Made by a program: the position numbers and the translations under genes. From Basidiobolus meristosporus CBS 931.73 (lineage: Eukaryota > Basidiobolomycota > Basidiobolomycetes > Basidiobolales > Basidiobolaceae): a stretch of DNA of 64,000 nucleotides. Below are positions 20,966 to 56,491 of this stretch, piece by piece; positions within the stretch are counted from its first letter, which is position 1, and every line of letters starts with the position of its first letter. A model generated the notes under the pieces. The model was not told where the DNA came from. It ran no database searches and worked only from the letters and a program-made list of their open reading frames with translations. The stretch covers positions 1 through 64,000 of the forward strand of contig MCFE01000480.1 in assembly GCA_002104905.1 (NCBI GenBank), written 5' to 3'.

Positions 20966-22672
20966 ATTGACCTCCTGCTTACTAAGCTCTGTGGATACAT
21001 ACATATGCTGTAGTTGATGCACTTCTATCACCTCAACTTTACAGCTTTTCAGGATAGTACAAACAAAGTTGCCAAATGCATTGTAATGTTCCATGCAAAG
21101 AATAACTGTAATGATCCCATCAAAAGGCCATCATCATATTAAAGTGTAATGACTAAAAGGTATTGGAGCTTTTGGAGCACTGTGAAAGATCCATTGGAGA
21201 AAAGCTGCACCTCAAATTTGAAAAATGATTGTTTAGAATTTTTCATCATATTGCTCTATTGGTTACCTCCATCAATTCTTGGCCATTTCTTGCCTTCTGA
21301 TCCCAGATACTCAGCCATCAGCTATGAGCTAGCTTACTGATTGGCTATTGCTCTGCTTACAATGTTGACTTCTGGATTTGATTGGTGCTTGCACTTCTCA
21401 TGCTTACATATTGATTTACTTCCATTAAATCTCCAACTGTGCTACATTTGCAGATTCTATTGACCTGTACAAACCCTCATTTGTAACACTGAAATTGAGC
21501 ACAACCTCACACTTTACAAGTAACTAGATTAAAATTTACCATCCAACAAGTGTCACTGCTGTAATGACCATTGCCCAGGTCATTGGCCAAAACCCAATGG
21601 CTTTGTGCAATTATTCATGCGCTAATGCCCATATGTCCTGGTCTTGTGCTAGCCCTTAAAGGTCTTGCACCCCACCTGCAAGTTGTGGCACTAAATCCTT
21701 GCAATGGTCAAGTGTATTTTCTTGAATACTGCTCTTGAAAAAGTGATATAGCCTCTTGGTGCACCTGTTATGTTCCAAAACTCACTATGGGCTTTCCCTA
21801 TGAAAAATCTCAAACTTGGAATTCATCTGATTTTGGCTGGTATTCTGCTGGTATTTTAATGGTATTTTGCTGGTATTCAGGTGGTGTTTTGAGTTCAAAA
21901 TTTTAAATGGAATTTTTGATGGAAGTAGTGGGCAGCTAATTACCACATTTGGTATGGATGCTAGTTTGCCTAGTCTCTTCCTGGAGAACTTGTTTGCTTG
22001 CCTGCACATTAGCGCAGAACAGAGATATTGAGAGTTGTCAATTTTGAGAAACCTGGAATTCAGCTGATACTATGATGGTATTTTGCTGACCTTTTCTCAG
22101 TTTTTTTTCTTAGGGCATTGTGATAGTCCTATGATTTCTTGATATTGTTGCTTTGCCTAAGAGTGGGATCTCCACTCTCTTGTCAATAAGGGACATGGAC
22201 ACTATGGTAAATAAAAAGCCTTTCTCTGCAATCTTGTTTACTTCACTGAAGTGCAGCTCAATTGGCTGCACTTCAAGCTCCTGTGTAAACAGCTGCTTGT
22301 TTGTGGGTAATTCTTCTTTGCTAATGCAGATTCAGACTCTTACAGCATGGCAGCATTATCTGGCAAAAACTATAGCTGCTTTTCATACTCCTCTGACCCT
22401 GACAAAAGTGCACTTTTTTCCATTCCCTTTACCTTTACCTTACATCACTGTCAAGTCCTTCATTGCTACTTTGCCTGAGTGCTTCCCCTGTGAAAAGTAA
22501 TTTAGTCCTGTGGGTGAATCCAATCAGGATCAGTAGCTGGGATCCTGTAATGAGGCCATCATATTGCCAGCAGCTTTGAATTATTGAAGCCCTACACAAT
22601 CTTATGATGGGACTATGATAGTATTTTGCTGATCTTACTGCCTGAAAAAGTTAAAAACTTGATGATGTTTAA
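20966..22672 (-). mobile_element. TNP2-like transposon fragments: gene A tail, then gene B 3' half
   Basis: 20968-21045 matches the tail region downstream of gene A (compare 28195-28280). From about 21.07 kb the sequence matches the gene-B-side terminal region found at 31.07-31.47 kb, then the 3' half of gene B on the minus strand (compare 31.47-32.1 kb), up to about 22.5 kb. At 22.49-22.66 kb it turns into a gene-A-side terminus (GTGAAAAGTAATTTAGTCC). Gene B is broken by stops and by an inserted element at 21792-22112. Confidence 0.6.
21792..22112. mobile_element. About 320-bp non-coding insertion inside gene B, GGGC flanks
   Basis: Comparison with the intact gene B copy near 31.72-31.76 kb shows that this segment interrupts otherwise continuous sequence (..CACTATGGGC / GGGCATTGTGATAG..). 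GGGC is repeated at both edges, as a target duplication would be. The insert is non-coding and carries repeated GGTATT/TGCTGG units. It also has two related stretches near its ends (GGAATTCATCTGA and GGAATTCAGCTGA) in direct orientation. No clear terminal inverted repeat, so the class is unknown. Confidence 0.55.
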
Positions 22673-23021: not shown

Positions 23022-26000
23022 ATTGTGGTCTTTTGACATGATTTGTGTGGTGTTTTAACAGTGTTGATGCACTCTACATTTATTTGAGTGGACCTTGCTG
23101 GCCAACACATTCTATTGTCTTATATGGCAAGAAACTTGATGGTGTTCTGACAGCCACATTGCAAACCTCTGCTGGCATTATAATGGCAGTATGGTGACCA
23201 ACAGCTGGTTCTGTATAATGCTACCAAACCAATTTATCATATGGAATTTTCTTTTTCAACATCCCCTTGCACCAATTGTCAATTCCATGGTAGAATCACC
23301 CCTCTTTAGTTGCTTACCCACCACTACCTTGGGTATAACATATATAGCTCAAATCAAATAAAACTATGGCCTCCTGCTTACTAATCTCTACATATGCATG
23401 CGCCCACTGCAACTAACATACTTCTATTCCCTCAACTTTATGGCTTTTGAGTGTGAAAATTGCAAAGCTGCTATTAACCTTATACAGCTGGTGGCATACA
23501 CATCTTGTAAACATATGGCTGCTTGCTGCCACTTTTGCCATGAAGACCTCCAGAATATCCACAAAGAACCTCTTGATATTGAGCCAATATATTCCTTCTC
23601 CCTGCTAGATCCTAGTCCCCATTATTGGTGTGCTCTGGCCCTTGTTTGTGTGAGTTTCATATTGAATGGTGTAGAAACTGGCTTGTGACCTAGAGAGCAT
23701 GACATACCTTGGTAAAGTTGTCCTGATAGAAATTAATTGCTTGTTGCACCAAGCCCAAATGTGCATTAGTTAACTGATTACCTACAAATTAGGGCTGCTT
23801 AGCTCCTTGGTGCCAATGGCAGAGGTGTCTCCATATGCACATCTATCCTCAATATTTGGCAACTCTTCCTTACTGTCCTCAGTGTGCCAAAATATCACAT
23901 CCATGACAGACTTGATGGTAATATTCTTGATGAGATTGGGATATGGTGATACCTGCAACTTAACTTGTCTTCCTATCTCCCCATACATCCACTCAATGGA
24001 AAACTCCCAAAAGGTCAAGCAAACCCCAATATTCTCCACATACCAAGCAAGATGGAGCAGAGAATGCATACAGTAGCCACAGAGATCTAAATGTTGAGCT
24101 ATTTGTTGGTAGTGTAGCCACTCAAAGCCCATCACAAGCATGTTGCATAAAAGCTGTAGATGTGTCAAGTTTTCCATGGTGATCTGATCCTGAATCAATA
24201 TTCCTGCACTGTCAACATATGACTCCTAATGGTTCCAATGTACTCTTAAAAGAGATGGCTTCAGAAGTCCACATGAGTAAATATATATTCCATTCATACA
24301 GTCCTTGCATTTGTATTATTGCATATGCATATGAATATTGTTTGGAGCCTGTGAGATATATCTCAGGTAGTGGATACCCAGGAATATCTTGCCAACTGTT
24401 TCAAACTTCTCTGGTATCTCAAGGGGCTCATTTAGCTTGAAATGTCCCATATACAACTTGCTCATTAGTATAGGGATATTGTTGAAAAGAAAATGCATTG
24501 CTCCCAGTATACAGCAATTGCTCCTACCAATACCCTCTATCTTGCATGTATCTAGTTTCTGATTAATTCTATATACTACCCAATGACTTATAGCTTGCCA
24601 ACAATGCTGCAATTGCATATTGACTTTAATAACTTAATCTTCCAACAGAGATAATATACCAATGTTGGTGTCTGGATAAGAATAATGTGTGTGAATTATG
24701 GAGTAAATACCCAAAATCTCACACATTCAACAGTACTACTGTCCATTTTGCCCAGAAAAGCTGGCTATCTTGCTGATGACTAGGGTATCTCCAAAGCAGT
24801 TAATGATATGTGCATTGACATGATGCCCATTTAATAGTATCCTATTGGAAAGCATCCAAAATTCATCCAGCAATGGATACAGGTGGTTGTCAAGGCTAGT
24901 TGGTGATTCAGGTGCTGATACTAGTGAGACCTCCATCAGGTATTGGCTCTAATACTGTAAGAGAGGTAGCAGACTTGGATTTGTGAGAATCAGTAGCCAT
25001 CAGCATTTGTGGGTAGAGTAATTGTTTGATGATAATCCATCAAGTGCCAATGCAAAGGAAAGATCATTAACACCTTCAAAGTAGCTGTGGCTATTTTATG
25101 TTTGTAATGTGTGCCATGAGTGCCAACTGATGCCATAGTGTGCCAGGGAGGCCAAATGAGCCTTTACTTGACCACAGAGTGTGAAATATAGCTCTGCATC
25201 TTCATGCAAAGCAGCCCCTGTGTTTCACCTATTATGCAGGGGAAATCCATTTTTTGGCCTTTTTTTAAGATCAATATTATGCAGGATGTGTAAGAGCATA
25301 AAAGGATTGAAGATATGCATCTGATACTCATTACCCATGGCACTTTGAATCTAGCTCCTGCGGCTTTTAACATGTTTTACTTTAGGGCCAATATTTAGAT
25401 ATAGTGCCAGATCTTACCAGTAGACCAAGTTAGTGCCATGCATTTTTGCAACATGTTACAAGCCACAGGAGCTAGATTCAGAGTGCAATGAGTATTGAAT
25501 ATCAGATACATATCTTCAGTCCTTTTGTGCTCTTATACATCCTGCACAACATTGATCCAAGAAAAAGTTCAAAAAATGGATTTTCTCCTGTATAATAGGT
25601 GAAACATAGGGGCTGCTTTGCATGAAGATGCAGAGCTTTGTTTCACACTCTGTGGCCAGGTATAGGCTCATTTGGCCTCCATGGCACACAATAGCATTGT
25701 TTGGCAATCACGGCTCAATGTAGCACTATCCAATGGAACAAGTCTACGGAGTGTAGTACTTTGTAGCTTCACAATATTTGTTGGACTGCATGAGCTTCCT
25801 TAGATGGGGTATTACTGGAACTTATCCTGAATATGAACAATGTTTTCCTCCTATGGTGGTGGATTCCTGAGAAGTTGGACACTTTGCAATGGTGGCATTT
25901 TCTAATGCAAATACCATGCCACTGTTAACACATACTGGTGTCAGGACAGTCTCTGGGCATATGTTGCCAGCAGCATATCAGTGATCCATTTGTTCCATGT

Positions 26001-26040
26001 ATATGGCAAGTTGCATCCTGGAATGATTTTGGCAAGTAGC
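23022..26040 (-). pseudogene. Gene A (TNP2-like transposase) remnant, interrupted by a foldback element
   Basis: Minus-strand peptides carry the gene A C-terminal half. At 24198-23782 are ENIGVCLTFWEFSIEWMYGE and YPNLIKNITIKSVMDV; at 24618-24316 are NIPILMSKLYMGHFKLNEP and a DNA-level match to the other copies. At 24936-24736 is HLYPLLDEFWML..NCFGDTLVISKIASFSGQ, which keeps the GD expected in this family (IPAAAKLAGF region). A foldback element occupies 25110-25744. After it, 25747-26040 continues gene A and then stops; the N-terminal about 550 bases seen in the copy at 30.3-30.83 kb are missing. Many stops; non-functional. Confidence 0.7.
25110..25744. mobile_element. Foldback element, third copy (internally deleted)
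   Basis: Its right arm ends CAATGGAACAAGTC followed by TA, as in the two 732-bp copies. The left arm lacks about the first 28 bases, and part of the centre is missing, so it is about 635 bp. It still reads as two inverted arms (GCTCTGCATCTTCATGCAAA near 25191 and its inverse near 25620). It sits in gene A of a TNP2-like transposon. Confidence 0.75.
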
Positions 26041-26205: not shown

Positions 26206-27415
26206 ATGCTGCCAAAAATTCTAGCAAAGTTGTCTGGTTCCCAACCAAGCCCCACTGTTGACAGCAGCAGAAGAACTGTTGGACAACAGCTTACATTCAC
26301 AATCAGTGCAACATGTAGGACTACATCCAACAAAGGCTATGCTGACAGTGTGCCAACAGTGGGTAACAATGCAGACTCCTCAGGCTCCCAGTCATGTAGG
26401 CTATTACAAATCTCTATGGAGCTGCAGCTGACCATAATGATCAGGCAGATAACAATGTAGCAAATGCAGTACCTTTGGTCAAAGACCAGATAGTGGCTGC
26501 CATAACATTAAACACCACCTATATTGGCAAGTGTATTGTTAGCTCATATCAAAGAATTAATGAGGTAATCAGGTGCAGTGACTGAAAGGATATTCACAAT
26601 GGCACAAAGAAGTCAGAAAATAGTCCAGAAACAGGATGAGTAGATAATACATGGAAATCAGTCAATATTCCAGGTAGAGACTGCAGGATTCTAGCTCCAA
26701 AGAGGGAACTCAAGTAGCTCAATTCCACAGTCAAAAACTGAGCCATTTCCCAGGGTAACAGCAGAGGAACACTGTACAGTCTTTGAAGCACAAAAACAGT
26801 GCCCAAAGATAAAGCCCACAAAAGAATCTATTACAGCATGTGAGAGAGAGACTGGGATGCTTCTACCCAAGCCTAAAAGTCAGAAGACATACAAGATCTG
26901 TAAAGCTGCTGAGTGCAATGATGAAGTGAGGGCTAGTATTCAAGAGGCCAGTAGAAATCTGGCAAGGCATCACTGAAGGCCACCATACCATATGATCACC
27001 AGAGACTCAAGGCCAAACAGAATGTACTTAACCTGTTGCATAAGTATATTCTTGGATTCATGTAAACAAATGGATTCTGAGCCAGCATTGGTATGCAAAG
27101 AATGTATCATGAGAATAGCAGAAACTATCAAAGGCAGAAGAACAAGGGTACCATGGCTAAAAATCAGCAGTTTCTTCAAGAGCTTGTCACAAAAAGGGAT
27201 GAAAGCTCCAAACAAGAGGCAGAGAAATGTCTGGTAGCCCAAAGTGTGTCATTGTGGGACAGGCAAGCAGAAATAGATGCACCAGTGCAGCATATATCAG
27301 GGAGAAAAAATAAATCAACAAATGAAGCACTCAGTCACATTAGCAGTGAAGGACTTGACAGTGATAAAAGCCCATGGCTTTCTCAGGAGTCATTCACAAG
27401 CAGGGCTGACACCGT
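26206..27415 (+). pseudogene. Gene B remnant (unknown second transposon protein)
   Basis: Starts MLPKILAKLSGSQPSP, followed by TVDSSRRTVGQQLTFTISAT, matching the start of gene B at 31048 (+) and 34155 (-). After a broken middle, 27093-27400 gives NSRNYQRQKNKGTMAKNQQF and SLWDRQAEIDAPVQHISGRK, with EALSHISSEGLDSDKSP. The protein is Lys/Gln/Ser-rich with repeated modules, and I do not recognise its family. At about 27.41 kb it switches to a minus-strand gene B piece. Confidence 0.6.
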
Positions 27416-27666
27416 TTTTCTGAGACTTCAACGGAGACCTTATAGCCCTGCACCATTGTTCATTCACTGGTTCCCATATTTCCTGACCTTGAGCCAGCAC
27501 TTCAGGGTCTAGCACATCATATGTCAGTCTCTGCAATGAATCCTTGCAGTATCCAAGTGAGTTTTCTTGAGCACTGTTCTTGAAGAAATGTGCAGCTACT
27601 TAGTGCACCTATTAGTGTTTCAAAGTTTCTCTGCAGGCATTAAAATATTCTTCTGAGCTTTTGACA
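27416..27666 (-). mobile_element. Inverted gene B 3' fragment
   Basis: DNA matches 31.53-31.74 kb (TGTTCATTCACTGG and AGCACTTCAGGGTCTAGCAC), the gene B C-terminal region, here joined head-to-head with the plus-strand gene B remnant. It ends where the next element starts with CCCTATGAGAAATAT at 27667. Confidence 0.5.
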
Positions 27667-28089: not shown

Positions 28090-30826
28090 CCCTTATGCAA
28101 TTCATATATTCCACTATAGAATCAGCCCTCTTTATTTGCTTAAACACTACTACCTTGGGTATTCCACATATAGTCTGAATCAATAAAAACTATGGCCTCC
28201 TGCTTACTAACCTTTACAAATGTGCATACCTGTTGCAATCAATGTATTTCTATCACCTCAACTTTACAGCTTTTTAGTGTGAGACTTGCATAGTTGCCAT
28301 ATAACTTTTACTTCTAGTGAAATATACATCTTGCAAGCATATTCTTGGTTGCCACCACTTCTGCCATGAGTACCTCCTGAATATCTGCAATGAACTTTTT
28401 AGTATTTAGCCAACATGTTTCTTGGCCATGCAGGATTCTAATCCATCTAATAGGTGCACTCTGGCACTGGTTTGTGAGAGTTTGTATTGAATTGTGTAGA
28501 AATTAGCTTGTGATCAAGAGAAACCCAGCACTCTTTGGTGAAGCTTTTCTGATAAAATTGGTTGCATGTTGCACCCAACCCAATTTTGCATTAGTTTACT
28601 GCTTACCCATGCTTTATGGTAGCTTAGCTTCTTAATGCCATAGGCATAGGTGTCTACATGTGCACATCTATCCTCAGTATTTTCCAGCTCTTCCTTGCTG
28701 TTCTCAATGTGCCAACTCATGACATCCATGGCAGACTTGAAGATGATACTGCTGATAAGATTGGGATATGGTGGTATCTGCAACTTGACTTGACTTCCCA
28801 TCTCCCCACACATCTGCTTCAAAGGAAACTCCCAAAAGGTGAAGCAAGGCGCAATATTCTCCACACACCAAGCAAGATGGAATAAAGAGTGGTTACTGTA
28901 GTGGCGGAGATCTACACATACAGCTTTATGTTTATAGTATTGGCACTCAAATCCCATCACAAACTCCTTGTACAAAAGCTCTAGATGCGTCAAGTTGGCA
29001 TTGATGATCCACTTCTGAATAAATACTCCTACAGAGTCCACATATAACTCCCAGTGCTTCCAATGTACTCCTGGTAGAAATGGCTTCCAAAGGTCACTTG
29101 AATAAATACATATCCAGTTCATCCAGTCCTTGCACTTGCATTGTTGCATATGCAAATGAATGTTGACTGGAGCCTATGAGAAGTACTTAGGACAGCAAAT
29201 ACTTTATGATATATTGCCAATTGTTTGAATTTCTCTGGTCTCTCAAAGGGCTCATTTAAGTTGAGTTGCCCCATGTATAATTTGGTCATCAGTATAGGAA
29301 TATTGTAGAAAAGCAAATGAACTGCTTGCAGTAGAAAGCTTTTTCTTCAACAGAAACCCTCTATCTTAAGTATATCTGGCTTCCAATAAATTCCATATTT
29401 TGGCCAATGGCTTTTAGCTTGCCAAATTTGCTGCAAATGCATGCTGACTTCTGTACAATCTCTCTGCAGGAAAATGATGTTCTTAGTGTTGGTGTTTGGG
29501 TAATAATAATGCGTGTGAGTTAAGAAGTAAATCCCCTGGATCTCACACACATATAGCAGCAATACTGACCATTGTGCCCAGAAAAGCTGGCTATCTTGCT
29601 GATGGCTGGGGTATCTTCAATGCCGATAATAGTATGTGCTCTGATATGACAGACATTTGCTGTTATCATGCTGGAAAGCATAAAAAACTCATCCAGCAAT
29701 GGATATAGGTAGCTATCTAGGTGGGATGGTGATTTAGGCCCAGATACCAGTGAGACTACTATTTGATTCCTGCTCTTATACTGTAAGTAGGCAGCAGATG
29801 CAGGCTATGAGAATCAGTGGCCAGCAGGATTTGCTGGTACACTACTTCTATAATGAGAATCCATCAAGCACCAAGGCAAAGGCATGGTTAAAAAAATCTT
29901 TAAAGTGACCCTTGCTTGTTAGCTGTTTGTATTGTTTGCAATCAAATATATTGGATATGTTTGCATTTGAATGTTACTGAGTACACTACTTTGTAGCTTC
30001 ACAATATTTCTTGGATCTCATAATCTTCTTTAGTCATGGTATTACTGCAATGTATCTGGGGTGTGAACAATGTTTTCCCCCAGTGGTGATGCATTCTTGA
30101 CAAGTTATACGCCTTCCAATGCTGGAGTTTTCTGATGTCACTGCAATGCAACTGTTAACACATGCTGGCATCAGGACAGTCTTTGGGCTATATGTTGCCA
30201 GCCACATAAAGGTTGTCCATTTGTGCTATGTACATGGCAAGTTGCATTGAGGGATGATTTTGGCAAGATGTAGTAGTAAATGCTCAAAGCCCCCATTACT
30301 AGTATTAATGGAAACACACTACTTCTCTAGCTAAACATCTTGCCATTCACCAGTAGATGGATAACTGGGGTCATATGACTCCATAAAGTATCCTTGGCAT
30401 TTTTTCCCACAAATATTATGTCAATCCATATTGAAATTTTGCCAGGCTGATGCAGGATGTTTGTGTTAGGGGAGATAGGCTCACAATTCATCAGTGAGCC
30501 TTCTTCTTCAGAGCTATTACTCTGCATGCCATATTTAGAAGGCTGAGGTGAGCCTAAAGGCTTCACAAACTCACCTGACTCAGTTTGCCCTAGGTGACAG
30601 GAATGGTCAGGTGCCATTATAAAAGTATTGACTTACTGTCAAGATAAAGTTGGTAGAGTGGTGACTGATGAATAGTCAAATATAACTTATGTGGCAAAAC
30701 ACTGGCTTTGATCCTTATTATACTTCTTATGCTGTCAGTGTGCTTCATGGCTAAGAGGCTTGCTACAATAGACACATTGTTTTTTTCTCTTCTCTTCCAA
30801 TGTTGAATCAAAGTGTTCTTGTCCAT
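28090..30826 (-). pseudogene. Gene A of element W: TNP2-like (CMC/EnSpm-type) transposase
   Basis: Cut-and-paste transposase of the TNP2 group, the least truncated copy here. N-terminus at 30826: MDKNTLIQHWKRREKNNVS, then a linker with LGSPQPSKYGMQSNSSEEEG (30617-30327). The middle keeps, in broken frames, an ACVNSC..TCPNC-like zinc site and the GDTPAIS..SFSGHNGQY segment (near 29.6 kb) typical of TNP2. The C-terminal part, 29155-28514, is one clean 213-codon frame: WELYVDSVGVFIQKWIINAN, then CFTFWEFPLKQMCGEMG (family pattern FWxFxFERxNG) and EDRCAHVDTYAYGIKKLS. A tail near 28.2 kb has EVSKQEA-like sequence. Full length would be near 900 aa. Stops and frameshifts make it inactive. Confidence 0.75.
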
Positions 30827-31047
30827 GGGGCAAACAATCTGACATTCAACAACATAACACTATTATATTATTTTTTGCCAATACTCATGTGATCACAAGA
30901 CAGTCTTGTATTTGAGACATTACACCTACATGGATGTAAAATTTAATGATGACCTGCCATAGCAAGCATTATAGATAAAGCTGTGACACTACACATACAT
31001 GTATATGCAACACCATTTACCCATTGGTTTGACTTACTCCTATATAT
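30827..31047. promoter_or_regulatory. Shared centre between divergent genes A and B (element W)
   Basis: About 221 bases between the gene A start codon (30826, minus) and the gene B start codon (31048, plus). A related centre lies at 34156-35113 once the foldback insertion is removed (226 bases). It presumably holds promoters for both genes; no motif was proven. Confidence 0.45.
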
Positions 31048-31063
31048 ATGCTGCCAAAAAATA

Positions 31064-31467
31064 CCCAATGAGAAAATACTGTGAGATCCTGTTAGAATGC
31101 CTTCACAAATTTAAAGTCCTGTGATTAAATGGTACTGATCCTGTCAGGACACCATGCAGAGACCATTGAAAAATAATTGTACCCCAGATGTCACAAAAAA
31201 CCTAGTCAAAACTTCTCATCATAACAATACAAAGTGGCTTTTGATTGGTTCCCTGCTAATTTGCTGACTTTTGAATCCTGGGCACTCAATCACCTCCTAT
31301 AGTTGTGTACATTAGTTGGCTATTGCCTCTTTTTCACACTCCTTACTTCCCAAACCAACCATTTCTCATATTTTTCATGCATACAAATTGATTTATTTCC
31401 ATTGAAACTTCAGTTGTACTTCAATTGCCAATTATTTTGACCTACATAAGTCCCTATACTGTACACA
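31064..31467. repeat. Gene-B-side terminal region of element X
   Basis: About 400 non-coding bases after the gene B stop. Matching regions lie at 21.07-21.5 kb and, inverted, at 51.09-51.46 kb, where the end reads TTACTTTTCATAGGG. Such subterminal DNA usually carries transposase-binding repeats. Confidence 0.6.
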
Positions 31468-34155
31468 TTAAAATCCACCACCCAATAGGTATTTCTGCTG
31501 TAAGGCTATATTTCCATGACTTTGGTGGGGATCCATGGCTTTATGCAACTGTTCATTCACAGGATCCCACATGTCCTGGTCTTTAGCCAGCACTGCAAGG
31601 TCTAGCACCTCATCTGCCAGTCTTTGCAATAAATCCTTGTAATACTCAGGTGCGTTTTCTTGAGCACTGCTCTTGAATAAGTGCTGCAACATCCCAGTGT
31701 GCCTATTAATGTTCCAAAGTTCCACTGATGGCATTGTGATAGTCTTCTAAGGTCTTGATGCTGTAGCCCTATTTGTAGGTTGGATCTTCACTCTATCAAC
31801 AAAGGAGGATGTGGAGGCTGCGGTAGACAAGTTGCCATTTTTGGCAAACTCATCTACCTTGCTGGAGTGCAGCTCAACTGGCTGCACTTTCAACTCTTGG
31901 AAGAACAGCTGTTTTCTTGCTGGTAATTCTTCATGGCTATGATGGCATTCAGTCTATTCCAGGGTTCTGGCATCAATTGGCAAGAACTGCAGTTTTTCTT
32001 GCAAGCTTCCATGTCTCAGGCTTAGCCATTTTTCCCTTTGCCTTTTCCTTTATCACTGCCTGGTCTTTTACTGCTACTTTGTCTGAGTGCTTCTTGTAAT
32101 GAACTATGTTTTCCCCTTGAAGAATTCTGCTCTGACTCACCTGTTTTGGCCTGCTTCTTCCTTGACAGCACTCTCCTGGCAACCTGCTGTTTCTTTTCCA
32201 CTTGCTTTAAGCTCTCACTTGTAGTTGTAGTGGGCTCCTAAGAAAGCTGCTGGTTTTTATCACTGCCAGGCCCTTCACTGCCACTTTGACTGAGTGCTTC
32301 TAGAGTGGCACTACACTTTTTCCTTGATAAATGTTGTGCTGGTGCATCTGTGTCTGCCTGCTTGTCCCCTATAGGCATTCTTCTAGCTACCTGACATCTC
32401 TGCAATGCTTGTTTAGAGATTTCGGCCCTGCTTGTAACAGGCTCTTGAGGAAGCTGCTGGTTTTTAGCCATGGCACCCTTATTCTTCTGCCTTTGATAGT
32501 TTCTGCTATTCATAACATACTTTCTTAGCATACCAATGCTAGCCCAATATCTGTTTTCCTGTTTGAATTCAGGATAATGCTGATGGAACAGGTCAAGCAC
32601 ATTCTGCTTTGCCTTGAGTTTCTGATGGTCCCATGATATGCTGGCCTTAAGGCAATGGCATGCTAGATCTTAGATGGCCTCTTGAATATTAGCCCACTCT
32701 TGATTATTGCTTGCAATAGCTTCACATATATCAGTGTCTTTTGATTTTTAGGCTTTGGTATATGCACCACATTGTCTCCCTCCCATACTGTGATAGGTTA
32801 CTCTGTGAGCTTTATGTTTGGGCTCTGTTGTTGTGCCTCAAATACTGAACAGTGTTCCTCTGCTGTTACCTTGGGAAATGGCTCAACTCTTGGCTGCAGC
32901 ATTAAGCTACTTGAGTTCCTTCTTTGCAGTAAAGATACTGCTTTCTCTACTTGGGATATTCATTGCACTACACCTATTACCCACTCATGCTGCTTCTGGA
33001 CTATTACTGGATTTCTCTTGGCTGTTGCATCCCTCCTATCAGCCACTGCACATAATTGCTTTATCAATGCTTTGGTATGAGCTTACAGCATATTTGCCAA
33101 TATGGGCAGTAGCAATGTTATGACAGCCACTTGCTGGTCTTCAACTGAGGGTACTGCATTGGCTACATTCTCATCTGCCAGAGTTTAATGGTGAGCTTGC
33201 AGCTCTGCAGAGGTTATCAATTGCCTACTTGAGTGGGAGCCTGAGGAGTCTGCATTATTAGACTTGTTCCATTGGATAGTGCCACATTGAGCCATGCATG
33301 CCAAATGATGCCATAGTGTGCCAGGGAGGCTAAGTGAGCCTGTACTTGGCCACAGTGTGTGAAACATAGATCTGCATCTTCATGCAAAGCAGCCCCTGCG
33401 TTTCACCCATTGTGTTGGAGAAAATCCATTTTTTGACCTTTTTTTTTAGGTCAATGTTGTGCAGGATGTGTAAGAGCACAAAAGGATTGAAAATATGCAT
33501 TTGGTACTCAATACCCATGGCACTCTGAATCTAGCTCCTGTGGCTTGTAACAAGTCACAACAATGCATGGCACTATCTTGGTCCACTGGTACTATCTGGC
33601 ACTATAAGTGCTTTGTATAGATCTTACTTTAGGGCTAATAATTAAATATAGTGCCAGATAGTACCAGTGGACCAAGATAGTGCCATGCATTGTTGTGACT
33701 TGTTACAAGCCACAGGAGCTAGATTCAAAGTGCCATGGGTATTGGGTACCTGATGCATGTCTTCAGTTCTTCTGTGCTCTTACACATCCTGCATAACATT
33801 GATCCACAAAAAAACGTCAAAAAATGGATTTTCTCCTGCATCACAGGTAAAACACAGGGGCTGCTTTGCATGAAGATGCAGATACATGTTTCACACTCTG
33901 TGGCCAAGTATAGGCTCACTTGGCCTCTCTGGCACACTATGGCATCATTTGACACTCATGGCTCAATGTGGCACTATCCAATGGAACAAGTCTAGTATGT
34001 TCAGTATGCACACTGTCAAAATGGCCTTTTTTGGATGTAGCCATGCCTGTTGCACTGATTGTCAAAGTAAGCTATTGTCCAACCATTCTTCTGTTGCCAT
34101 CAGTGGTGGGGTTTGGTTGGGAACTAGAAGACTTTACTTTATTTTTTGGCAGCAT
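31468..34155 (-). pseudogene. Gene B of element X, unknown protein with internal repeats
   Basis: Start MLPKNKVKSSSSQPNPTTD at 34155, interrupted by a foldback element (33261-33992). Next come ADENVANAVPSVEDQQVAV, KALIKQLCAVADRRDA and EKAVSLLQRRNSSS. At 32600-32238 is a clean frame beginning MLDLFHQHYPEFKQENRYW. A module of the type QVARR..A..EAL.QS.S.GPGSDK occurs at least twice (around 32400-32250 and 32190-32030). The last frame (31734-31468) has EYYKDLLQRLADEVLDLAVL. Without insert and stops the protein would be roughly 600 aa or more. It is Lys/Gln/Ser-rich with no domain I know. It might be a DNA-binding helper like TNPA, but that is only analogy. Confidence 0.6.
33261..33992. mobile_element. 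732-bp foldback (palindromic) element, copy 1
   Basis: Starts GACTTGTTCCATTGGATAG and ends with its inverse CTATCCAATGGAACAAGTC, flanked by TA on both sides. The whole element is one long inverted repeat: arms of about 340-350 bases run inward to a centre near 33600-33640. The arms share, for example, TGCATCTTCATGCAAAGCAG, inverted in the other arm. It is non-coding. Comparison with undamaged gene B (39.48 and 26.37 kb) shows that one TA was duplicated on insertion. Confidence 0.9.
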
Positions 34156-35113
34156 AAATATGGAAGTGAGTCAAGCAAAAGGGGAAATAATGTTACATAT
34201 ACATGCATATATGGTGCCACAGTTTTATTTATAATAGACTTGTTCCATTGGATTGTGCCACATTGAGCCATGAGTGCCCAATGATGCCATAGTGTGCCAG
34301 GCAGGCTAATTAAACCTACACTTGGCCACAGAGTGTGAAACATAGCTCTGCATCTTCATGCAAAGCCACCCCTGTGTTTCACCCATTGTGTTGGAGAAAA
34401 TCCATTTTTTGACCTTTTTTTTTAGTTCAATGTTTTGCAGGATGTGTAAGAGCACAGAAGAACAGAGGACATGCACCAGGTACTCAATACCCATGGCACT
34501 CTGAGTCTAGCTCCTGTGGCTTGTAACATGTCACAAAAATGCATGGCACTATCTTGGTCCACTGGTACTATCTGGCACTATGAGTTCTTTGTATAGATCT
34601 TACTTTAGGTCTAATAATTAAATATAGTGCCAGATAGTACCAGTGGACCAAGATAGTGCCATGCATTTTTGTGACATGTTACAAGCCACAGGAGCTAGAT
34701 TCAGAGTGCCATGGGTATTGAGTACCCGGTGCATGTTCTCAGTGCTTCTGTGCTCTTACACATCCTGCACAACATTGATCCTCAAAAAAACATCAAATAA
34801 TGAATTTTCTCCTGCATCATAGGTGAAGCACAGGGGCTGCTTTGCATGAAGATGCAGAGCTATGCTTTACACTCTGTGGCCAAGTACAGGTTTACTTAGC
34901 CTCTCTAGCACACTATGGCATCATTTAGCACTCATGGCTCAATGTGGCACTATCCAATGAAACAAGTCTAATGCTTAATATGGTGGGTCACCATTGAATA
35001 TTACATTCATGTTGCTGCAGTGTCTCAAATACAAACTCTCTTGAATTCACATGAGTATTGACCAGTAAGTGATATAATAGTGCCATGTTGCTGAAGGTCA
35101 AACTGTTTGCCCT
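34156..35113. promoter_or_regulatory. Shared centre of element X, carrying a foldback insertion
   Basis: The region between gene B start (34155, minus) and gene A start (35114, plus). Removing the 732-bp foldback element leaves about 226 bases, close to the 221 bases of element W, so the spacing between the two start codons is kept. Confidence 0.45.
34237..34968. mobile_element. 732-bp foldback (palindromic) element, copy 2
   Basis: Same length and organisation as copy 1: GACTTGTTCCATTGGATTG at the left, CTATCCAATGAAACAAGTC at the right, TA on both sides. Arms meet near 34580-34620. The two copies differ at scattered single bases, mostly C/T and G/A differences. Confidence 0.9.
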
Positions 35114-38100
35114 ATGGACAAGACCACTTTGATTCAACACTGTAAGTAAAGAGAAACAAACCATGTGGCTGTTCTAGCAAATCTCTCAGCCATATAGAAA
35201 GCATAGGAAGTACTACAAGGATCATGGCCAGTGTCTTGCCACACAACTAATACTTGACCATTGATCATTCCCAACTGTATCAACATTATCTTATTAACCA
35301 GTTGATACTTCTATACTGGCACCTGGCCATCTTTGTCACCTTGTGCCAACTGAGCCAGGTGAGTTCATGACACCTTTAAGCCCGCCTCAGCCTTCTGAAT
35401 ATGGCATTCAGAGTGATAGCTCTGACAAAGAAGGCTCAATGATGGATTGTGAGCCTATCCCCTGTAACAACATTACCACACATGAGCCTGGTCAAATCTC
35501 AATATGTAATGAGAAAACATCCATTGAAAAAAATGCTCAAGATAGTTTATAGGGCCAAGCAAGCCCAGTAATCAATCCACTGGTGAGTGCTGTAATGTTG
35601 TGGCTAGAGAAGTGGCATGTTTCTACTAATATCAGTAATGACGGCTTTGAGGATCTACTTCTACTTCTTGCCAATATCATCCCTCAATGCAGCTTACCAT
35701 TTATATGGTATAAGTGGACAACCATCATGTGGCTGGCAACAAATGACTCAGAGGCTATCCTGACTCCAGCATGTGTTAACAGTTGCATTTTTTTCACATC
35801 CAAATATGCTACCATTGTAACATGTCCAAATTGTCAGGAATCCATCACCATTGAGGGAAAACATTGCTCATTCTCCAGATATATTCTGGTAACACCCTAT
35901 CAAAAGAAGCTCATATATCGAACAAATATTACAAAGCTACAAAGTATCAAACTCAGTACCAATCAAGCGCAAACATATCCAGTGTATTTGATTGCAAACA
36001 TTACAAACAGCTAAGAAGCACAGGCTACTTTGAAGGTATGTATGACCATGTCTTTGCCTTAGCACTTGATGGATTCTCATTAAACAAGTACTACCAAAAA
36101 ATCCTGCTGGCCACTGATGCTTGTCAACCCAAATTTGCTGCCAATCCTAGATTATCAGAGCCAAGCTCTGATGGTAGTCTCACTTATATCTGAGCCTAAA
36201 TCACCGTTCAACCAGGATAGCCACCTGTATCCATTGCTGGATGAATTCTGTGCACTTTCCTGGAGGATAGCAGTAAATGGCTGTAATGTCAAAGCTCGTA
36301 TTATTATCTGCACTGGAGTCACCCCTGCCTTCAGCAAGATAGCCGGCTTTTCTGGGCAAAACTGATGGTATAGCTGTCAAATGTGTGAGATCCAGGGTAC
36401 GCACTTTGTAGCTCACAAACAGTAATTTTACCCATACGCCAATGCTAAGAACATCAGCTTCCCACCAAGAGAATATACAGAAGTCTGCATGCAATTGTAT
36501 CAAAGTTGGCAAGCTATAAGCCATTAGCAGTGTAGTGGGGTGACAGTGACACCCACTAACAGATGTGCTCATTCCCTTATTTTCTACTTCCATATATCTC
36601 TACTACACTTATTTTAGTTTTATCCCGTTTGTCTTACCCAATCAGAACTATCCCATAAGCCGGTTGACTATCACACCTGCTTACCTTATTGCATAAGTTA
36701 CCTCTCACTTTACGTATGATTACTAGCTATAAGTGCTTCTATATTAGGCAAGTACCCACACCAGTACTAATGACACATGATCAACCAGTGTCACCATCCC
36801 TACCATTTCCATACCATATATGTATCCCTATGTTACACAGGTTTCAGAATACTGATTCCTGATTGGTTGGATGTGCTGTGCCTCTTAGAACCTTCTGGCA
36901 CCTACTTGGAACATTCTTAGGTCATTGTGATGTCATTAAGATTTCTATTGATATCCTGAACCTTCTGGAATACCATGCTTAGTAATCACTTAGCCAGTGA
37001 GAAAAGTATATAAGGGAGGCTATCCCTCAAGAATAAATCATCATCCCTTTTATCAATATTCCAACTTGTTGATTAGTGTGATCACAGCTACCTGCTGCCA
37101 CCTGAACTTCCAACCCCAGACCACAGGACACTCCCAGGAAACCGTGCTGACAGCCAACTGACCTTGGAGGCACTACTTGGGAGGAATACTCAGAGTAGGT
37201 ATCTTTTATTATATTTGATTCTTTCTCAAGTTTGTTCTTGTACAGGCAAAGATACTTTTCTGTCTTTGTAACTATTGACCACAGCTGCATTCTTATCAAG
37301 TCACTGCTAGTGGAGTTTACAGTTGTTTTGACTTTGGAAACTTTAGTACATTGTCATCTCAAAGGATGCTGAACCCAGCACATACTTTGGTTAAGGTGCC
37401 AACTAAGTTGTGGATTGTAGCTTAATAGTATTCCCTTGACAAGCTTGTGGCTTTATTCCCCTTCACATTAGATTAGAGACAGAACCCAAGTATTCCTAGC
37501 AAGCTTTTACCAGAGGTTATTGCACCCAGTGAACACCCCACACACAAAACACTTGAGAAGTGTTGGACGTATCTCACCCTTAGACCTATAAACCACCACA
37601 GTGGGAATATTGAATCAATTGGAAACCAGAGACTCTTAAGATACAGAGTATCTGTTGGGGCAAATGCTTTCCACTGGGAGCAATGCACTTGCTTTTCAAC
37701 AATATCCCTATACTGATGACCAAGTTGTACATGGCACATTTCAAGCTAAATGAGCCCTTCAAGATACCTGAGGAGTATAAAAGAGTTGGCAAGACATTAC
37801 AGAATACCTACTACCCTGAGTACTTCTCACAGACTTCAATTAATATTAATACATATATGCGGCAATACAAATGCAAAGTCTAGATGAACTTGATATGTAT
37901 TTATTCAAGTGGCAGCCTGAAGCCATTCTTATCAAGAGTATCTTGGAAGCATTGGGGGTCATATGTGAACATTGTAGGATTATTTATCCAAAAGCAGATC
38001 ACCAATGCAAACTTAACACATCAACGGCTATTGTGCACGGAGTTTGTAGCAGGATTTGAGCCGCTATACTACAAGCATAAAGCTAAATGCATAGATCTCT

Positions 38101-38990
38101 GCTGCTACTGTATCCATTCTCTACTCCATCTTGCTTGGTATGTGGAGAATATTGGGCCTTGCTTCACCTTTTGGAAGTATCCTATGGAGCAGATGTATGG
38201 GGAGGTAGCAAGATGAATCAAGTTGCAGGTACCACCATATCCCAATCTTGTCAAGAATATTACCTCTAAGTCTGTTGTGGATGTGATATGTTGGCACACT
38301 GAGGACAGTAAGGAAGAGTTGCCCAATATTGAGGACAGATGTGCATATGGAGACACCTATGCCTATGGCATTAAGAAGCTATGCAGCCCCAATGTGTGGG
38401 TAATTAGTTAAGTAATGCAAAGTTGGATGGGGTGCATCAAGCAACTGATTGTTATAAGGAAAACTCTGCTAAGGTATGGTGGATTTCTCTTAGTCAATAG
38501 CCAGCTTCTGCACCATTCCATAAGGAGTTTGCACAAACAAGAGCCAGAGCACACCTTTAAGGGGGACTAGTATCCAGCAGGGTGAAGGAATATATTGGCT
38601 AAGCACCAAAAAGTTCTTTGCAGATATTCAGGAGGTATTAATAGCAGAAGTGGCAGCTACTAAGCATATGTTTGCAAGATGTATGTATTACCAGCGGTAG
38701 AAGGTATATGGCAATTCAGCAAGTATCACACCAAATAGGCATAAAGTTGAGGTGATAGAAGTATATCAATTGGGGCAGGTATGCACATTTGTAGAGGTTA
38801 GTAAGCAGGAGGCCATAGTTTTTTTTGATTCTAGCCACAGGTGGGATACCCAAGGTAGTAGTGGTTAGGCAAGTAAAGAGGAGTGATTCTACAGTGGAAT
38901 ATATGAATGCACAAGGTGAGGAAGAAATACAAAATACCATTTGGTAAATTGGAATGGTGGCACTATACAGAGCTAGCTGTAGGGTGCCAT
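35114..38990 (+). pseudogene. Gene A of element X: TNP2-like transposase with LTR insertion
   Basis: Starts MDKTTLIQHCK at 35114. 35343-35552 gives EPGEFMTPLSPPQPSEYGIQ. 35583-36014 gives GFEDLLLLLANIIPQC and the zinc-site pattern ACVNSC..TCPNCQES typical of TNP2. 36117-36365 gives SPFNQDSHLYPLLDEF, VNGCNVKARIIICTGV and SKIAGFSGQN. A 1070-bp LTR (36531-37600) splits the gene. It resumes at 37683 with LLFNNIPILMTKLYMAHFKL, then CFTFWKYPMEQMYGE and EDRCAYGDTYAYGIKKL (up to 38411). The tail extends to about 38990. The Asp expected before the SKIAGF segment reads V here but D in other copies. Inactive. Confidence 0.75.
36531..37600. repeat. Solo LTR, about 1.07 kb, inside gene A of element X
   Basis: Begins TGTAGTGGGG and ends ACCACCACA, so the ends are inverted (TGTAGTGG / TGTGGTGG). 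CAGTG occurs at both borders (36528-36532, 37599-37603), fitting a 5-bp target duplication that overlaps the last bases of the LTR. Removing the insert restores the continuous gene A DNA seen near 62.4 kb. A TATA sequence (GTATATAAGGGAGG) near 37007 could be the LTR promoter. It holds several CpG, more than its surroundings. No internal retroelement domain is attached. Confidence 0.65.
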
Positions 38991-39344
38991 ACTGCTGTAA
39001 AATGCCATCAGAGACCTGCAATGAGGCTGTCAAAATACCATTATATTTTTTGCCATACAATGCAGTTGGATGTATTAACCAGCTAGATCCATTTGAAATA
39101 GCTGTAGAGTGCATTGAGACTGCAATAATGCCATGCACTTATTGTTGCAGCACCAACTAAACCCCATAGTGTTTTATAACTTTATTTGGCAGTAAAATTA
39201 GCAAAATGCTGTTGGAATCCTGTCATGAGCTTGTCAAGAGGGTCACTAATTCCAAGCTGCTGGTATCATAATGGTCTCCAAACAGGATCCTGATGGCTGG
39301 CCTGGATCAGAGCCACCTGCAGGACCAAATTAGTTTTCATAGGG

Positions 39345-39934
39345 ATAAAGCAAAGTCATCTGGTTCCCAACAAAACCCCACCACTGACAGCAGCAGAAGA
39401 ACGGTTAGACAACAGCTTACCTTGAAAATCAGTGCAACAAGCAGTACTATATTCAAAAGGCCATGCTGACAGTATGCCCACTGAAGGTAATAATGCAGAC
39501 TCCTCAGGTGCTCAGTCAAGTAGGAAATTGAGAACATTTGCAGGACCGCAAGCTGACCATAATGCTCAGGCAGATGAGAATGTACAAAAAGCAGTATCTT
39601 TGGATGAAGGCCAGCAAGTGACCATCATATCATCACCACTGTCTGTATTAGCAAGTTGTTGTCAGCTCATACCAAAGCATTAATGAGGCAATTAGGTGCA
39701 GTGGCTGATAGGATAGATGTCATGGCCCACAGAAATCAGGAAATAGGCCAGAAACAGGCTGTGCAGATAATACCTGTAGAGTAATCAATACCTCATCTGG
39801 AGAAAGCAGTATCTTTACTGCAAAGAAGGAACTGAAGTAGCTCAGTGTCATAGCCAAAAATTGAGCCATTTCCCAAATTAACAGAATAGGAGCACTGTAC
39901 AGTCATTGTAGAACAACAAAAGTGCCCAAAGATA
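39345..39934 (+). pseudogene. Gene B of element W, second part
   Basis: Continues gene B after element X: SSGSQQNPTTDSSRRTVRQQ, then shifted frames including AQADENV (around 39.56 kb) and HTKALMRQLGAVADRIDVMA near 39.67 kb with RNQEIGQKQ. It ends in AAAGTGCCCAAAGATA where the Copia B LTR starts. Confidence 0.6.
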
Positions 39935-41425
39935 TGATGAAATATTGGACTATTTGGTATCATTCAGCAGCTAAAAACTTACTTAACAATTCTAGACTAG
40001 TCTTAGTCACTGTAGGACTCATTTAGTGCCTTAACTTTGCCACTTTCTCCAGATATATGATCTTATGATTATTCCCCTATAGTCAGGATCAAATAAGCAC
40101 TATTACCCAACATTATATAATAACCCTGAAACTGTTACAGAATGCTTTGAAATATTGAGAAACCCTCCATACTTAATGATACAGCTGTATTACTTCTACA
40201 AAGGTATAAATACTGAGCTTCTTTACAAATAAACAACAGTTCAACTATTATCACTATTTCTTGATAAGTTCCTTATATCCAAATCACTTTGTAAATTGCA
40301 ACAGTTTATGAGCTCCAAATGCCTTAATCTATTCTAAAAGATGACTTCTACCAGCAAACAGTGCAATACCAACATCTTCCCTGTAAAGGAGAGGTTTGAT
40401 GGGAAGAACTACACACTTTGGAGAATCAAGATGCAGATCCATCTTGAGGAAAGAAAGCTTTGTAACATGGTAACAGGAAAGGAAGTCAAGCCCAAAGGAA
40501 CAGCAGAAGATGTAGAGAAGTTTCAAGAGAAGGAGAGAAAGGCCTTCAATGCCATATACATCAATGTGCAAGACTCCTTCATTGGACAAATCCATGCCTC
40601 AAATACTGCCAAAGCAGCATGGGAATCCTTAGAGAAGATCTTTAGAGCAAAGTCAATATCAAGCAAGCTTTATTTGAAACAAAAGTTCTTCAACATGAGG
40701 AAGAAGCCAGATGATGAAATGCTACAACTCATTACCAGAATGGAGACACTTGCAGAAGAACTTTGCAGTATTAATGCTGGTGCAGATGATGAAGAAAAGA
40801 TACTGTGTCTGCTTTGCAACCTACCAGACAACTATGGGCCACTCATACCTTCTTTTGAAAGCAGAGAAGACCACTTGACTTCAGACTATGTCAAAGGAAG
40901 ACTTCTCCATGAAGAACTCAGACATAACAATCAAGCAGAGGAAATTGAAGATAATGCTTTATTCAGTTCCGAAAGAGACACAGAAAAGAAGGGAAAGCAA
41001 CACACCAAAGAAAACCTGGCTGCTGTAACTACTGTAAAAAGCCTGAACACTGGGCAAGAGAATTCAAGAAGAAACAAGCAGACAAAAAACAGAAACTAGA
41101 GCAGGCAAGCCATATAACTACTGATGAACAGTTATTTGTAACTGTACAAGAGAGTGCAAGTAACCAAAGTAATGAATGATATATTGACTCTGGAGCATCA
41201 CAGCATATTTGTGGTATAAAGGATTGGTTCAGCAACTTAAAGACTATTCCTGTAAGAAAGGCTTATCTGGGAGATAACTCTGCATTGGAAGCTAATGCCA
41301 GTGGGTCTATACAACTAAATATGAGTGATAACTCAGGGGCAACAACAGCAAAACTGAATGACGTACTCTATGTACCTGGAATAGCTTCTAGTATTGAGCT
41401 AGGTGTTCTCAGTAAATGAGGCACT
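39935..41425 (+). mobile_element. Copia element B', 5' part: LTR, gag, protease
   Basis: LTR 39935-40281 (347 bp, TGATGAAATATTGG..TTATATCCA), the same length as the LTR at 47055-47401. After gag comes a zinc knuckle in another frame, then protease YIDSGASQHICGIKDWFSNL near 41180 with the DSG active site intact, then LYVPGIASSIELGVLS. It ends at about 41.42 kb against element Y sequence, so integrase, RT, RNase H and 3' LTR are gone. Confidence 0.8.
40341..41099 (+). CDS. Copia gag polyprotein, intact 252-codon frame
   Basis: Structural Gag of a Ty1/Copia element, starting MTSTSKQCNTNIFPVKERFD. It contains GKNYTLWRIKMQIHLEERKL, then IGQIHASNTAKAAWESLEKI, and LPDNYGPLIPSFESREDHL, the normal order of the UBN2/retrotransposon gag domain. 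The frame ends in RNKQTKNRN. The zinc knuckle CCNYCKKPEHWAREF lies in the neighbouring frame from about 41010, so a one-base shift separates Gag from its knuckle. This is the best-preserved Copia frame in the window, but the element is truncated. Confidence 0.8.
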   Translation: MTSTSKQCNTNIFPVKERFDGKNYTLWRIKMQIHLEERKLCNMVTGKEVKPKGTAEDVEKFQEKERKAFNAIYINVQDSFIGQIHASNTAKAAWESLEKIFRAKSISSKLYLKQKFFNMRKKPDDEMLQLITRMETLAEELCSINAGADDEEKILCLLCNLPDNYGPLIPSFESREDHLTSDYVKGRLLHEELRHNNQAEEIEDNALFSSERDTEKKGKQHTKENLAAVTTVKSLNTGQENSRRNKQTKNRN

Positions 41426-41429
41426 GGTC

Positions 41430-44400
41430 CATCTATTTTGGCCTGCTTGACAGCTACTGACACTCTTCTAGCAACCTGTCATTTCTTCCCTACATGTTTT
41501 GAGCTTTGTTTCCTGGCAGTGATAAGTTCCTGAGGAAGCCACTGGTGTTTATTGATACCAGGTCCTTCACACTATTCTGGACAGGTACTTCTTTAATGAT
41601 CCTATGCTTTTTGCTTGATAAACAAGGCACTGATGCATCTTTTTCTGCCTGCTTTTTCCTTAAAAGCCCTTCTCTGGCTACTTCATATTTCTTTGCTGCT
41701 TGTGCAAAGCTTTTATACTTGCTTTCAATGGGCTCTTAAGGATGCCATGGGCTTTTAGCTGTGGATCCCTTGTTCTACTTCCTTTAAAGGTTTCCGCTTT
41801 TCACAATATATTTTCTTAACATATCAAAGCTTGGCCTGGAAGTTCTGATGATCCTATAAAATGCCTGTCTTAAGGGTACTATAGTCCACTGCTTAAATGC
41901 TTAGGTGGGGCAGTTTTCAGTTAAGTAGCATTGCATTTAGCCTTTTAGTAAATCAGTATTTACTACTTGATCATGGTGTTTAACAGCAGATAAATCCGCA
42001 TTTACTTATCAAGCAATAATGTGTGTATTAAGTAAGATCCCATTGGGTGAAGATGACACTATTAAATGAGTCAAGAGCCACAGCCTTCATTATAATCTGT
42101 TTCATTCAGCTACTTGAGTTCCTTCTTTGCATCTATGATATTGTATTTTCAACCTCAGATATTGATTGCTCTGTATGCATTATCCACTCATCCTGTCTCA
42201 GGAAATTTCCTGATATCTGCAGCCCACAGGATCCTATTAGTCAGTGAGCCTAATTGTCTTATCAAAGCATTGATAAGAGCTGACAACTTTTATGCTTCCA
42301 CTGGTGGTGGTGATATTGCAACAGTCACTTGCAGGTTGTCCACTGGAGGCACAGTATATGCTCCATTTCATCTGCATCAGCATTTGATCACCTTGCAGCT
42401 CTGCAGAGATTTGCAGCTGCCTATATCACTGCAAGTCTGATGAGCTTTCATTATTACCTTGTATGGGCACATTGCCATTTTGTCCTTTTTTACATGTTAC
42501 TCTGCTTATTGTAAAGAATGTTAATGCAAGTTGTTGTCTAGCTGCTCTTTGGCTATTGTCCACAGTGAGGATTGGTTAGGAACCAGACTTTGTGGTTTTA
42601 TTTCCTGGCTCCATATGTATGGAAGCAGGTCAAGCCAAAGAGTAAAAAGTGTAATATATACGGGTGTATGTAATGCCACAGCTCTACTTATAATAATTAC
42701 TCTAGTAGGTCATTGTTGCGTCTTACATTCATGGATGTAAAGTGTGTCAAACATAAAACTGGTTAAACTCTTATAAGAATTGACAAGAAGATGATAAATT
42801 AGCATTACACTGTTAAGTGTTGTGCTGTTTGCCCAATGGACTAGACTACTATGATTCCAAACCATAAGAGAAAGCAAAAAGATCACATCGCTTTTGTAAC
42901 AAGCCTCTCTGCCATGAAGCATACAAGAAGCATAGGAAATATTACTAGGAACATGGTCTGTGCTTTGTTACCACAGTCATATTTAGGCATTCATTAGGAA
43001 CTGCCAAACCAACAATATTTAGTTGGACACCTGATACCTCTGTAATAGCACCTAGCCACACTGGACACCTTGTGCAAAATCAGTCAGGTGAGTCTGTGAC
43101 ACTTTTTGGCTCACCTTAGCCTTCTGAATATGGCCCATAGAGTGATAGCTCTGACAACCAAGGCTCACTGATAGATTGTGAGCCAATCTGCTCTCAAAAT
43201 AATACTCAGTATCAGCCAGGCAAAATTTTATAATTCAAAGGAGAAAACATACATATAAAAAATTTCAGGGATATCTTATGCAACCAAGTTAGGGCAGCAT
43301 TTCACATACTGGTGAATGATCTGATGTTATGGCTACAGCAGTGATGTGTTTCCACCAAGATCAGCTATGGCCACCACTACTTCTTGCCAAAACCTTACTT
43401 GAATATAACTTACCATATATGTAGTACAAATGAAGTATTAAAATGTGGCTGGCTGCATATGACCCAGAGAATGTCCTGATACCAGCATGTGTTAGCAGTG
43501 GTATTGTATTCACCATAGAGAATGCCACCACTGCAAGGTGTCCAACTTGCTGAAATCCACCACCACCTGAGGAATATGTTATTCATGCTCTGAATATATT
43601 CTGGTAATGAAGCATGTAAGGAAGCACATGCAGTCTAGCAAGATGTAATGCTATGATGTACTGCCCAATATCAATGAAGAGCAAACACTTCCAAAATATA
43701 CTGAAATCCTGCTGACCATTAATTCTCATCAACCTGAACTTGCCACTAGTCTTGTAGTATCTGATTTTTCCCATAACACCACCATTAGGAGAAACATTCT
43801 TCCACTGAGAGAACATACAGAAGTCAGCATGCAACTGCAGCAAAGCTTGCAAGCTATAATCTATTAGACAATAAAATTATGCAAAATTGTCTATACTCAA
43901 AATGGAGGGAATATGTTAGAGCAAAAACTTTCTATTGGGTGCAATGAATTGCTCCTTAGTAGTATCACTGCACTGATGACAAAGTTCTAATTGTGGCATT
44001 CCAAGCTACATGAGCCCTGGAGACACCAGTGAAATGTGAAAAAGATGACAAGATATTACTGGGTATCTACTGCCCAAAGTACCTGTCATAAGCTTGAGTC
44101 AATTGTCATATGCATATGCACTAACACAAATGCAAAGTCTTGATGAGCTAGATATGTGTATTCAAGTAGCCTTCTTAAGCTGCTTTTACCAAGAGAGTTT
44201 TGGAAGCTTAGAGAGTTATATGTCTGCCATGCAGGAGTATTAATGCAGCAGCAGTTCACCAAAGCCAGTTTGGCTCATCTAAAGCTTTGATATAGCAAGT
44301 TTGTGATAGAGTTTTGGTGGTAATACTACAAGCATAAAGTTGAATGCACAGATTGTTGCCACTACTGTTCTGATTCATAACTCTATTTTACTTGGTATAT

Positions 44401-56232: not shown

Positions 56233-56491
56233 GAATGTTGCAGGGGCATTAGTGAGGCCAAACTCATGACTAAATACTTGTAATGTCCATATCTGGTCCT
56301 AAATGCTGTCTTAGAAATATCTTCTGGTTTCACCCTAATTTGGTTGTATCCTGACATGAGGTCAATCTTGCTGAAAATAGTGGCTCCATTAAGTTGGTCC
56401 AAAAGCTCAAGGTATGGGGTACTTATTATTGATGGTAACTGAGTTCAGGGCTCTGTAGTCAATGCACATCCCAAGTGTTCCATCCTTCTTT
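56233..56491 (-). pseudogene. Broken RT segment between the two open frames
   Basis: Frameshifted pieces give [31 protein letters not shown] and [12 protein letters not shown], the fingers and first palm motifs of Gypsy RT. A stop follows SPWGASVLL and a further stop replaces part of NNKYPIP; at least two changes of frame. Confidence 0.75.

Follow-up and report, generated by a model that had tools for sequence, protein, structure and literature searches.

A second gene in an EnSpm/CACTA-type transposon of Basidiobolus meristosporus, divergent to its TNP2-type transposase gene

A gene of at least 634 codons, here called gene B, is part of a multi-copy DNA transposon in Basidiobolus meristosporus CBS 931.73. 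It lies between the terminal repeats of the element, moves with it and shares its line of descent with the transposase gene (gene A) across subfamily splits. This conclusion is strongly supported by divergent pairing with TNP2 genes, by shared ends with target duplications and by co-divergence with gene A, and it upholds the preliminary description of the 64,000-nt stretch of contig MCFE01000480.1 analysed here (the window), which had assigned gene B to the transposon. From the pairing, the ends and the co-divergence, the element is classed on sequence grounds as a two-gene, cut-and-paste member of the EnSpm/CACTA (CMC) group, with CCC ends nearest to those of animal TRC elements.

Structure of the element and its ends

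The transposon is 5.5–5.8 kb in length, is bounded by terminal repeats CCCTATGAAAAATWATT and carries both genes inside. The main copy in the window measures 8281 bp, three insertions included (Table 1); its left terminal repeat reads CCCTATGAAAAATTATT in other copies. It lies nested within another element's gene B, whose sixth codon it interrupts, with duplication of ATA; the insertion is datable. Target duplications of 3 bp were also found at L077 (CCT) and L063 (AAA). The flanks of L076 match only as a 4-bp TAAA, and those of L060, which abuts another broken copy, show no matching duplication. Exact ends occur 153 times (left) and 236 times (right) in the genome, with none in reversed-pattern controls.

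Table 1. Positions of transposon genes, ends and inserted repeats in the window
Feature	Position	Strand	Basis or remark
Gene B tail fragment	21557..22322	-	tblastn
Gene A of third element, divergent to its gene B	23872..26039	-	tblastn
Gene B of third element	26206..27413	+	tblastn
Gene B tail scrap, just behind the (+) gene B copy	27423-27590	-	tblastn
Gene A of older element	28697..30856	-	tblastn
Older element's gene B, first codons	31048..31063	+	main element inserted in sixth codon
Target site duplication ATA, left	31061..31063		ends read directly
Main transposon, with gene B towards the left end and gene A towards the right	31064..39344		boundaries common to L060, L062 and L063
Left terminal inverted repeat, CCCAATGAGAAAATACT	31064..31080	+	ends read directly
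Gene B copy of main element	31468..34155	-	broken: stops, frame breaks, palindromic insertion
Palindromic repeat inserted in gene B	33256..33997		742 bp
Second palindromic repeat, in the stretch separating the two genes	34232..34970		repeat comparison
Gene A, TNP2-type transposase of main element	35084..38309	+	tblastn; interrupted, frame breaks
Repeat of ~1.07 kb inserted in gene A	36531..37603		a copy in L061 is 94% identical
Right terminal inverted repeat, ending TTTTCATAGGG	39328..39344	-	ends read directly
Target site duplication ATA, right	39345..39347		ends read directly
Older gene B, continuation past the duplicated ATA	39348..39934	+	tblastn match from 39341
Gene B of divergent subfamily	41374..42614	-	tblastn
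Gene A of divergent subfamily, divergent to its gene B	42803..44566	+	tblastn

The gene B copy of the main element is a pseudogene, with frame breaks, in-frame stops and the palindromic repeat inside it. The product (P0001) of the long copy L013 nevertheless covers window positions 31534-34155 (-) at 67–75% identity (tblastn), with residues 1–52, 52–229, 227–457 and 466–630 aligned. The start MLPKN given in the preliminary description is correct for the window copies; the long copy begins MPPKNK.

The inserted repeat of ~740 bp is palindromic end to end and is present a third time in the window at ~25110-25746. The first two window copies have TA on either side. The repeat matches dozens of places in the genome, many of them on both strands, and looks like a very long foldback MITE.

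Copies in the genome and pairing with the transposase gene

The 89-Mb genome (1311 contigs) was searched for gene B and for the TNP2 domain (PF02992). At least 150 places encode gene B, this being the best 150 of 4398 candidates that were scored, and at least 150 PF02992 matches exceed the cut-off; for the relatives L059 and L060 the PF02992 E-values are 9e-15 and 1.7e-16. Pairing was assessed from these two separate searches, with 150 scored matches each. Gene B and TNP2 matches lie within 10 kb of each other in 46 pairs, and in 37 of these TNP2 is less than 4 kb upstream of gene B. The orientation is divergent in 36 of the 37 close pairs, one being same-strand, and the spacing is 2186–2355 bp in 27 of them. 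In the other nine of the 46 pairs the TNP2 match is farther away or on the opposite side.

The reverse view was taken at the 20 best PF02992 loci, a sample that favours one subfamily because it consists of the best scorers. A divergent gene B start lies within 1.5 kb at 14 of them, and L058 retains a tail scrap of gene B alone. Gene B is absent from the 1.5 kb read at five loci: at L046, L049 and L055 the best gene A pieces are without the 5′ part, at L057 the gene A pieces are set apart, and at L043 other sequence lies directly upstream.

The ends lead to the same arrangement. The ends compared were 63 on the left and 97 on the right, drawn from listings of 100 out of the 153 and 100 out of the 236. 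Ten pairs of exact ends among them face each other within 20 kb. These span 5482–12563 bp, with no shortened copies among the ten, and gene B was seen in the five that were read (L063, L076, L077, C2 and C419). A scored gene B match lies within 4 kb inside at least 9 of the 63 left ends, and a scored TNP2 match within 5 kb of at least 23 of the 97 right ends; all 32 of these matches are in the expected orientation.

Across 11 elements, distances between gene A copies and between gene B copies are closely correlated (r = 0.982; none of 2000 permutations as high). The pair at 41.4–44.6 kb of the window differs from the rest by ~30% in both genes, with the divergent layout kept.

Coding potential and selection

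The L013 copy has 647 open codons and runs to the end of its contig, so the 3′ end of gene B is uncertain. Of 33 aligned copies it alone has neither a stop nor a frame gap in 634 codons. A consensus formed from the column majority of all 33 copies was translated and contains no stop in the same 634 codons. Gene B had been put forward as a real gene kept in several copies, and the open frame of L013 together with the number of genomic places bears this out.

Variants found in a single copy resemble neutral change, 71.3% being non-synonymous and 23.6% synonymous (expected 68–71% and 24–27%); within the recent burst, evolution is close to neutral. Variants common to two copies are 32.9% synonymous with 6.0% stops. 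Those common to three or more copies are 34.7% synonymous with 2.6% stops, against 24–27% and 4.4–4.7% expected, a within-burst selection signal that is modest, given that the two other forward frames yield 31.1% and 25.3% synonymous changes and 5.8% and 10.5% stops for the same class of variants. Between subfamilies dN/dS is 0.49–0.77 for gene B (<1 in 5 of 5 comparisons) and 0.41–0.61 for gene A (<1 in 10 of 10), values that lean low because the pieces were chosen by protein similarity. Together these results depict a gene that selection maintains in the active lineage, while inserted copies decay.

It is very improbable that gene B is merely a chance open frame in repeated DNA, a reading that would suit the 32 broken copies, the +1 frame, which is also open over 170 aa in L010, L013 and L059, and the near match of this +1 frame (31.1% synonymous among variants common to three or more copies) to the gene B frame, but that is countered by the stop-free majority, by the synonymous and stop proportions of the shared variants and by dN/dS below 1 throughout, even if biased downwards by the choice of pieces.

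The gene B product and the N-terminus of gene A

The product is ~640 aa long with a pI of 9.1; Ser, Ala, Gln and Lys are abundant, and most of the chain is predicted to be disordered. A helix is predicted at residues 105–169, with a hydrophobic periodicity of 3.5–3.6 that 0.65–1.9% of shuffles equal in strength. Three further predicted helices at 239–321 are followed by two basic tandem modules of ~69 aa and then by a more acidic C-terminal part. The repeated module of the preliminary description thus corresponds to a tandem duplication of ~69 aa (~210 bp), in which off-register matches have 65–75% identity (majority 70–75%). The conserved tail motif described with it is likewise present, and the helical region (71/90) and the tail (48/60) are the parts best kept relative to the main window copy. 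Structure models are of low confidence, with a mean pLDDT of 39.6 for the whole protein and 50.8 for the helical region, and a fold search with such a low-confidence model gave no matches at E ≤0.001.

The N-terminus of gene A is Cys/His-rich (CGYCGKPLSHEARRQHRK in L063), which we take to be finger-like. Gene A may therefore bind the element ends alone.

Homologue searches

No partner matching gene B was found within Pfam, NCBIfam, PDB, viral contigs and 5.8 billion proteins, in keeping with the initial impression that none was known. The single long copy gave no matches among 7499 candidates from the 5.8 billion proteins, and a 22-row alignment searched against the same set gave none among 7995 scored. 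A control search with the transposase returned two proteins among 2446 candidates, one with 52% identity (on a 5233-bp contig) and one from Rhizoctonia solani with 32%; since the control found only these two, fungal coverage or sensitivity is limited and the absence of a gene B homologue is weak evidence. Viral contigs yielded no relative of gene B or gene A, and bacterial and archaeal genomes no relative of gene A.

Known DNA-binding, enzymatic or chromatin domains were not detected in gene B with Pfam or NCBIfam, the latter giving no match at all. The Pfam matches of P0001 at E ≤10 include no dioxygenase, Pfam gives no Myb/SANT match, and no plant transposon family appears for P0001 (E ≤10) or for 25 helical-region members (E ≤1). 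Profile searches and structure prediction, which had been suggested as a check, thus yielded no clear similarity to a known transposon or host protein.

Several marginal hits were set aside. The REV1 C-terminal domain (PDB) at the tail (E 0.26) and polyhedrin (PDB) at the helical region (E 0.56) were judged to be chance, and YecR (0.38) and SKA2 (0.66) in Pfam were unconvincing for P0001. The Pfam family 'Bubble protein' matched 7 of the 25 helical-region members (best E 0.016, below its cut-off where shown) and was also judged to be chance.

Classification and comparison with known systems

The element has the Transposase_21 (tnp2, PF02992) domain of CMC transposons and a target duplication of 3 bp, within the 2–3 bp of that group. 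The CACTA core of plant elements is missing from its ends, which have instead the CCC core of TRC elements. CCC ends with 2-bp duplications are reported for animal TRC elements by DeMarco et al. (2006, PMC1636069), whereas the three copies with matching flanks found here have 3 bp. According to the same text, the ends of fungal TRC-type elements could not be characterised.

As described in that source, the TRC elements (SmTRC1 of Schistosoma and animal relatives in the CACTA superfamily) share with the present element a Transposase_21 domain, CCC-starting repeats (CCCTA... in Tribolium), short target duplications, a 5-kb class size (Tribolium) and an extra protein suspected of TNPA-like DNA binding. 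However, the extra SmTRC1 proteins are described there as products of alternative splicing, whereas gene B forms a gene of its own, in divergent orientation. The same paper gives plant En/Spm a TNP2-type transposase (TNPD) and a second protein without transposase domain (TNPA), both essential for transposition in maize. There a single transcription unit is spliced into both, whereas two divergent genes are present here (PMC1636069).

For fungal EnSpm and Plavaka families with TET/JBP genes, Kojima (2025, PMC12730594) indicates CMC membership, an extra gene beside the transposase and, for EnSpm families, 3-bp target duplications as here. Their ends are CAC..GTG, TGT..ACA or CATCA..TGATG rather than CCC..GGG, and their extra gene is a dioxygenase, to which gene B has no such match (PMC12730594). 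Nuwa/Harbinger elements also combine a transposase with a separate gene for a DNA-binding (Myb/SANT) protein (PMC12730594). They differ in transposase superfamily, and gene B is without a Myb/SANT match.

Plant En/Spm ends are CACTA and not CCC, and TNPA binds arrays of subterminal repeats in En/Spm. No strong array of this style was seen in four elements. The one thing to stand out is an internal copy of the end motif ATGAAAAAT, at three per element in these four, with a maximum of two in 49 of 50 shuffles.

Possible roles of gene B

Our tentative proposal, to which we give a little less than an even chance, is that the gene B product may help or regulate transposition in the manner of TNPA. 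Gene B and the TNP2-type transposase gene point in opposite directions, and their start codons are ~220 bp apart if gene A begins at the first Met of the L060 frame. The basic, largely disordered product with its coiled-coil-like helix, probably self-associating, would bind the element ends or the transposase and would thereby promote or regulate transposition. It would work like plant TNPA; homology with TNPA is no part of the proposal. The Cys/His-rich N-terminus of gene A and the missing strong subterminal array make a straightforward repeat of the En/Spm scheme less likely. Also counting against the proposal are the lack of a detected DNA-binding domain, the poor models, the neutral-like burst variants, the TNP2 loci without gene B and the one same-strand pair.

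A wider formulation, possible though we would sooner doubt it, is that gene B founds an unrelated family of disordered, basic, coiled-coil accessory proteins, either needed by the transposase or shielding from silencing, that evolved independently of plant TNPA, of the Harbinger Myb partners and of TET/JBP cargo.

Taken by itself, shielding of the element from silencing by host chromatin or DNA methylation, with gene B dispensable for the transposition reaction, is an unlikely but serious competitor. TET/JBP dioxygenase genes, carried by fungal transposons that include EnSpm and Plavaka, probably counter methylation (PMC12730594). Chromatin is a conceivable target for a basic disordered protein, and gene A may be self-sufficient in binding the ends, but an enzymatic or chromatin domain was not detected in gene B with Pfam or NCBIfam.

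We regard as rather improbable a role as repressor or copy-number regulator of the transposase, exerted via the common intergenic stretch. The divergent layout with its ~220 bp suits control of both promoters, and in plants TNPA is reported to act on its promoter both as activator and as repressor (PMC1636069). The element is, however, at high copy number, and positions 2700–3300 of L077 show no operator-like repeats beyond imperfect inverted repeats.

A cargo role is more improbable still: gene B would then be a passenger captured from the host that plays no part in transposition. Transposons do capture genes, and protein searches found no gene B homologue in other elements. However, gene B has been kept beside gene A through subfamilies ~30% apart with correlated divergence, its dN/dS is below 1, and no intact host counterpart was recognised among the best 150 of the 4398 candidates.

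The helper proposal bears on a wider gap. In animal and fungal CACTA relatives the transposase has been recognised and a TNPA equivalent is not established. One was proposed for Schistosoma, with no counterpart found elsewhere (PMC1636069). Extra proteins beside CMC transposases are already known (maize TNPA, Schistosoma splice products, fungal TET/JBP); what is new, within the literature searched and as far as its excerpts go, is a separate divergent gene with such a product, no fungal TNP2 element in that material, PMC9674265 included, being described with a second, divergent gene. With the ends and target duplications of this multi-copy family mapped and its second gene holding a constant place, it can be tested directly whether such elements need a second protein. 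Repeat annotators also gain a gene that might otherwise be mistaken for a family of host genes.

Other features of the window

Besides the main copy, the window holds four further gene B regions and one tail scrap (tblastn); the scrap at 27423-27590 is a sign of rearrangement. From ~17 kb onward the G+C content is 36–44%, versus 50–56% at ~8–17 kb. An open frame at 63056-63619 matches DDE_Tnp_4 (E 1.1e-12), and the stretch that holds it is repeated at 59017-59316 and 62713-63993. Two open frames are pieces of retroelements, one at 55192-56298 with reverse transcriptase and RNase H matches and one at 48941-49441 with a Pol_BBD match (E 8.1e-7). In the part of higher G+C, an intact 684-aa frame of the prolyl oligopeptidase family (13171-15225; PF00326, E 1.2e-58) is an apparent host gene.
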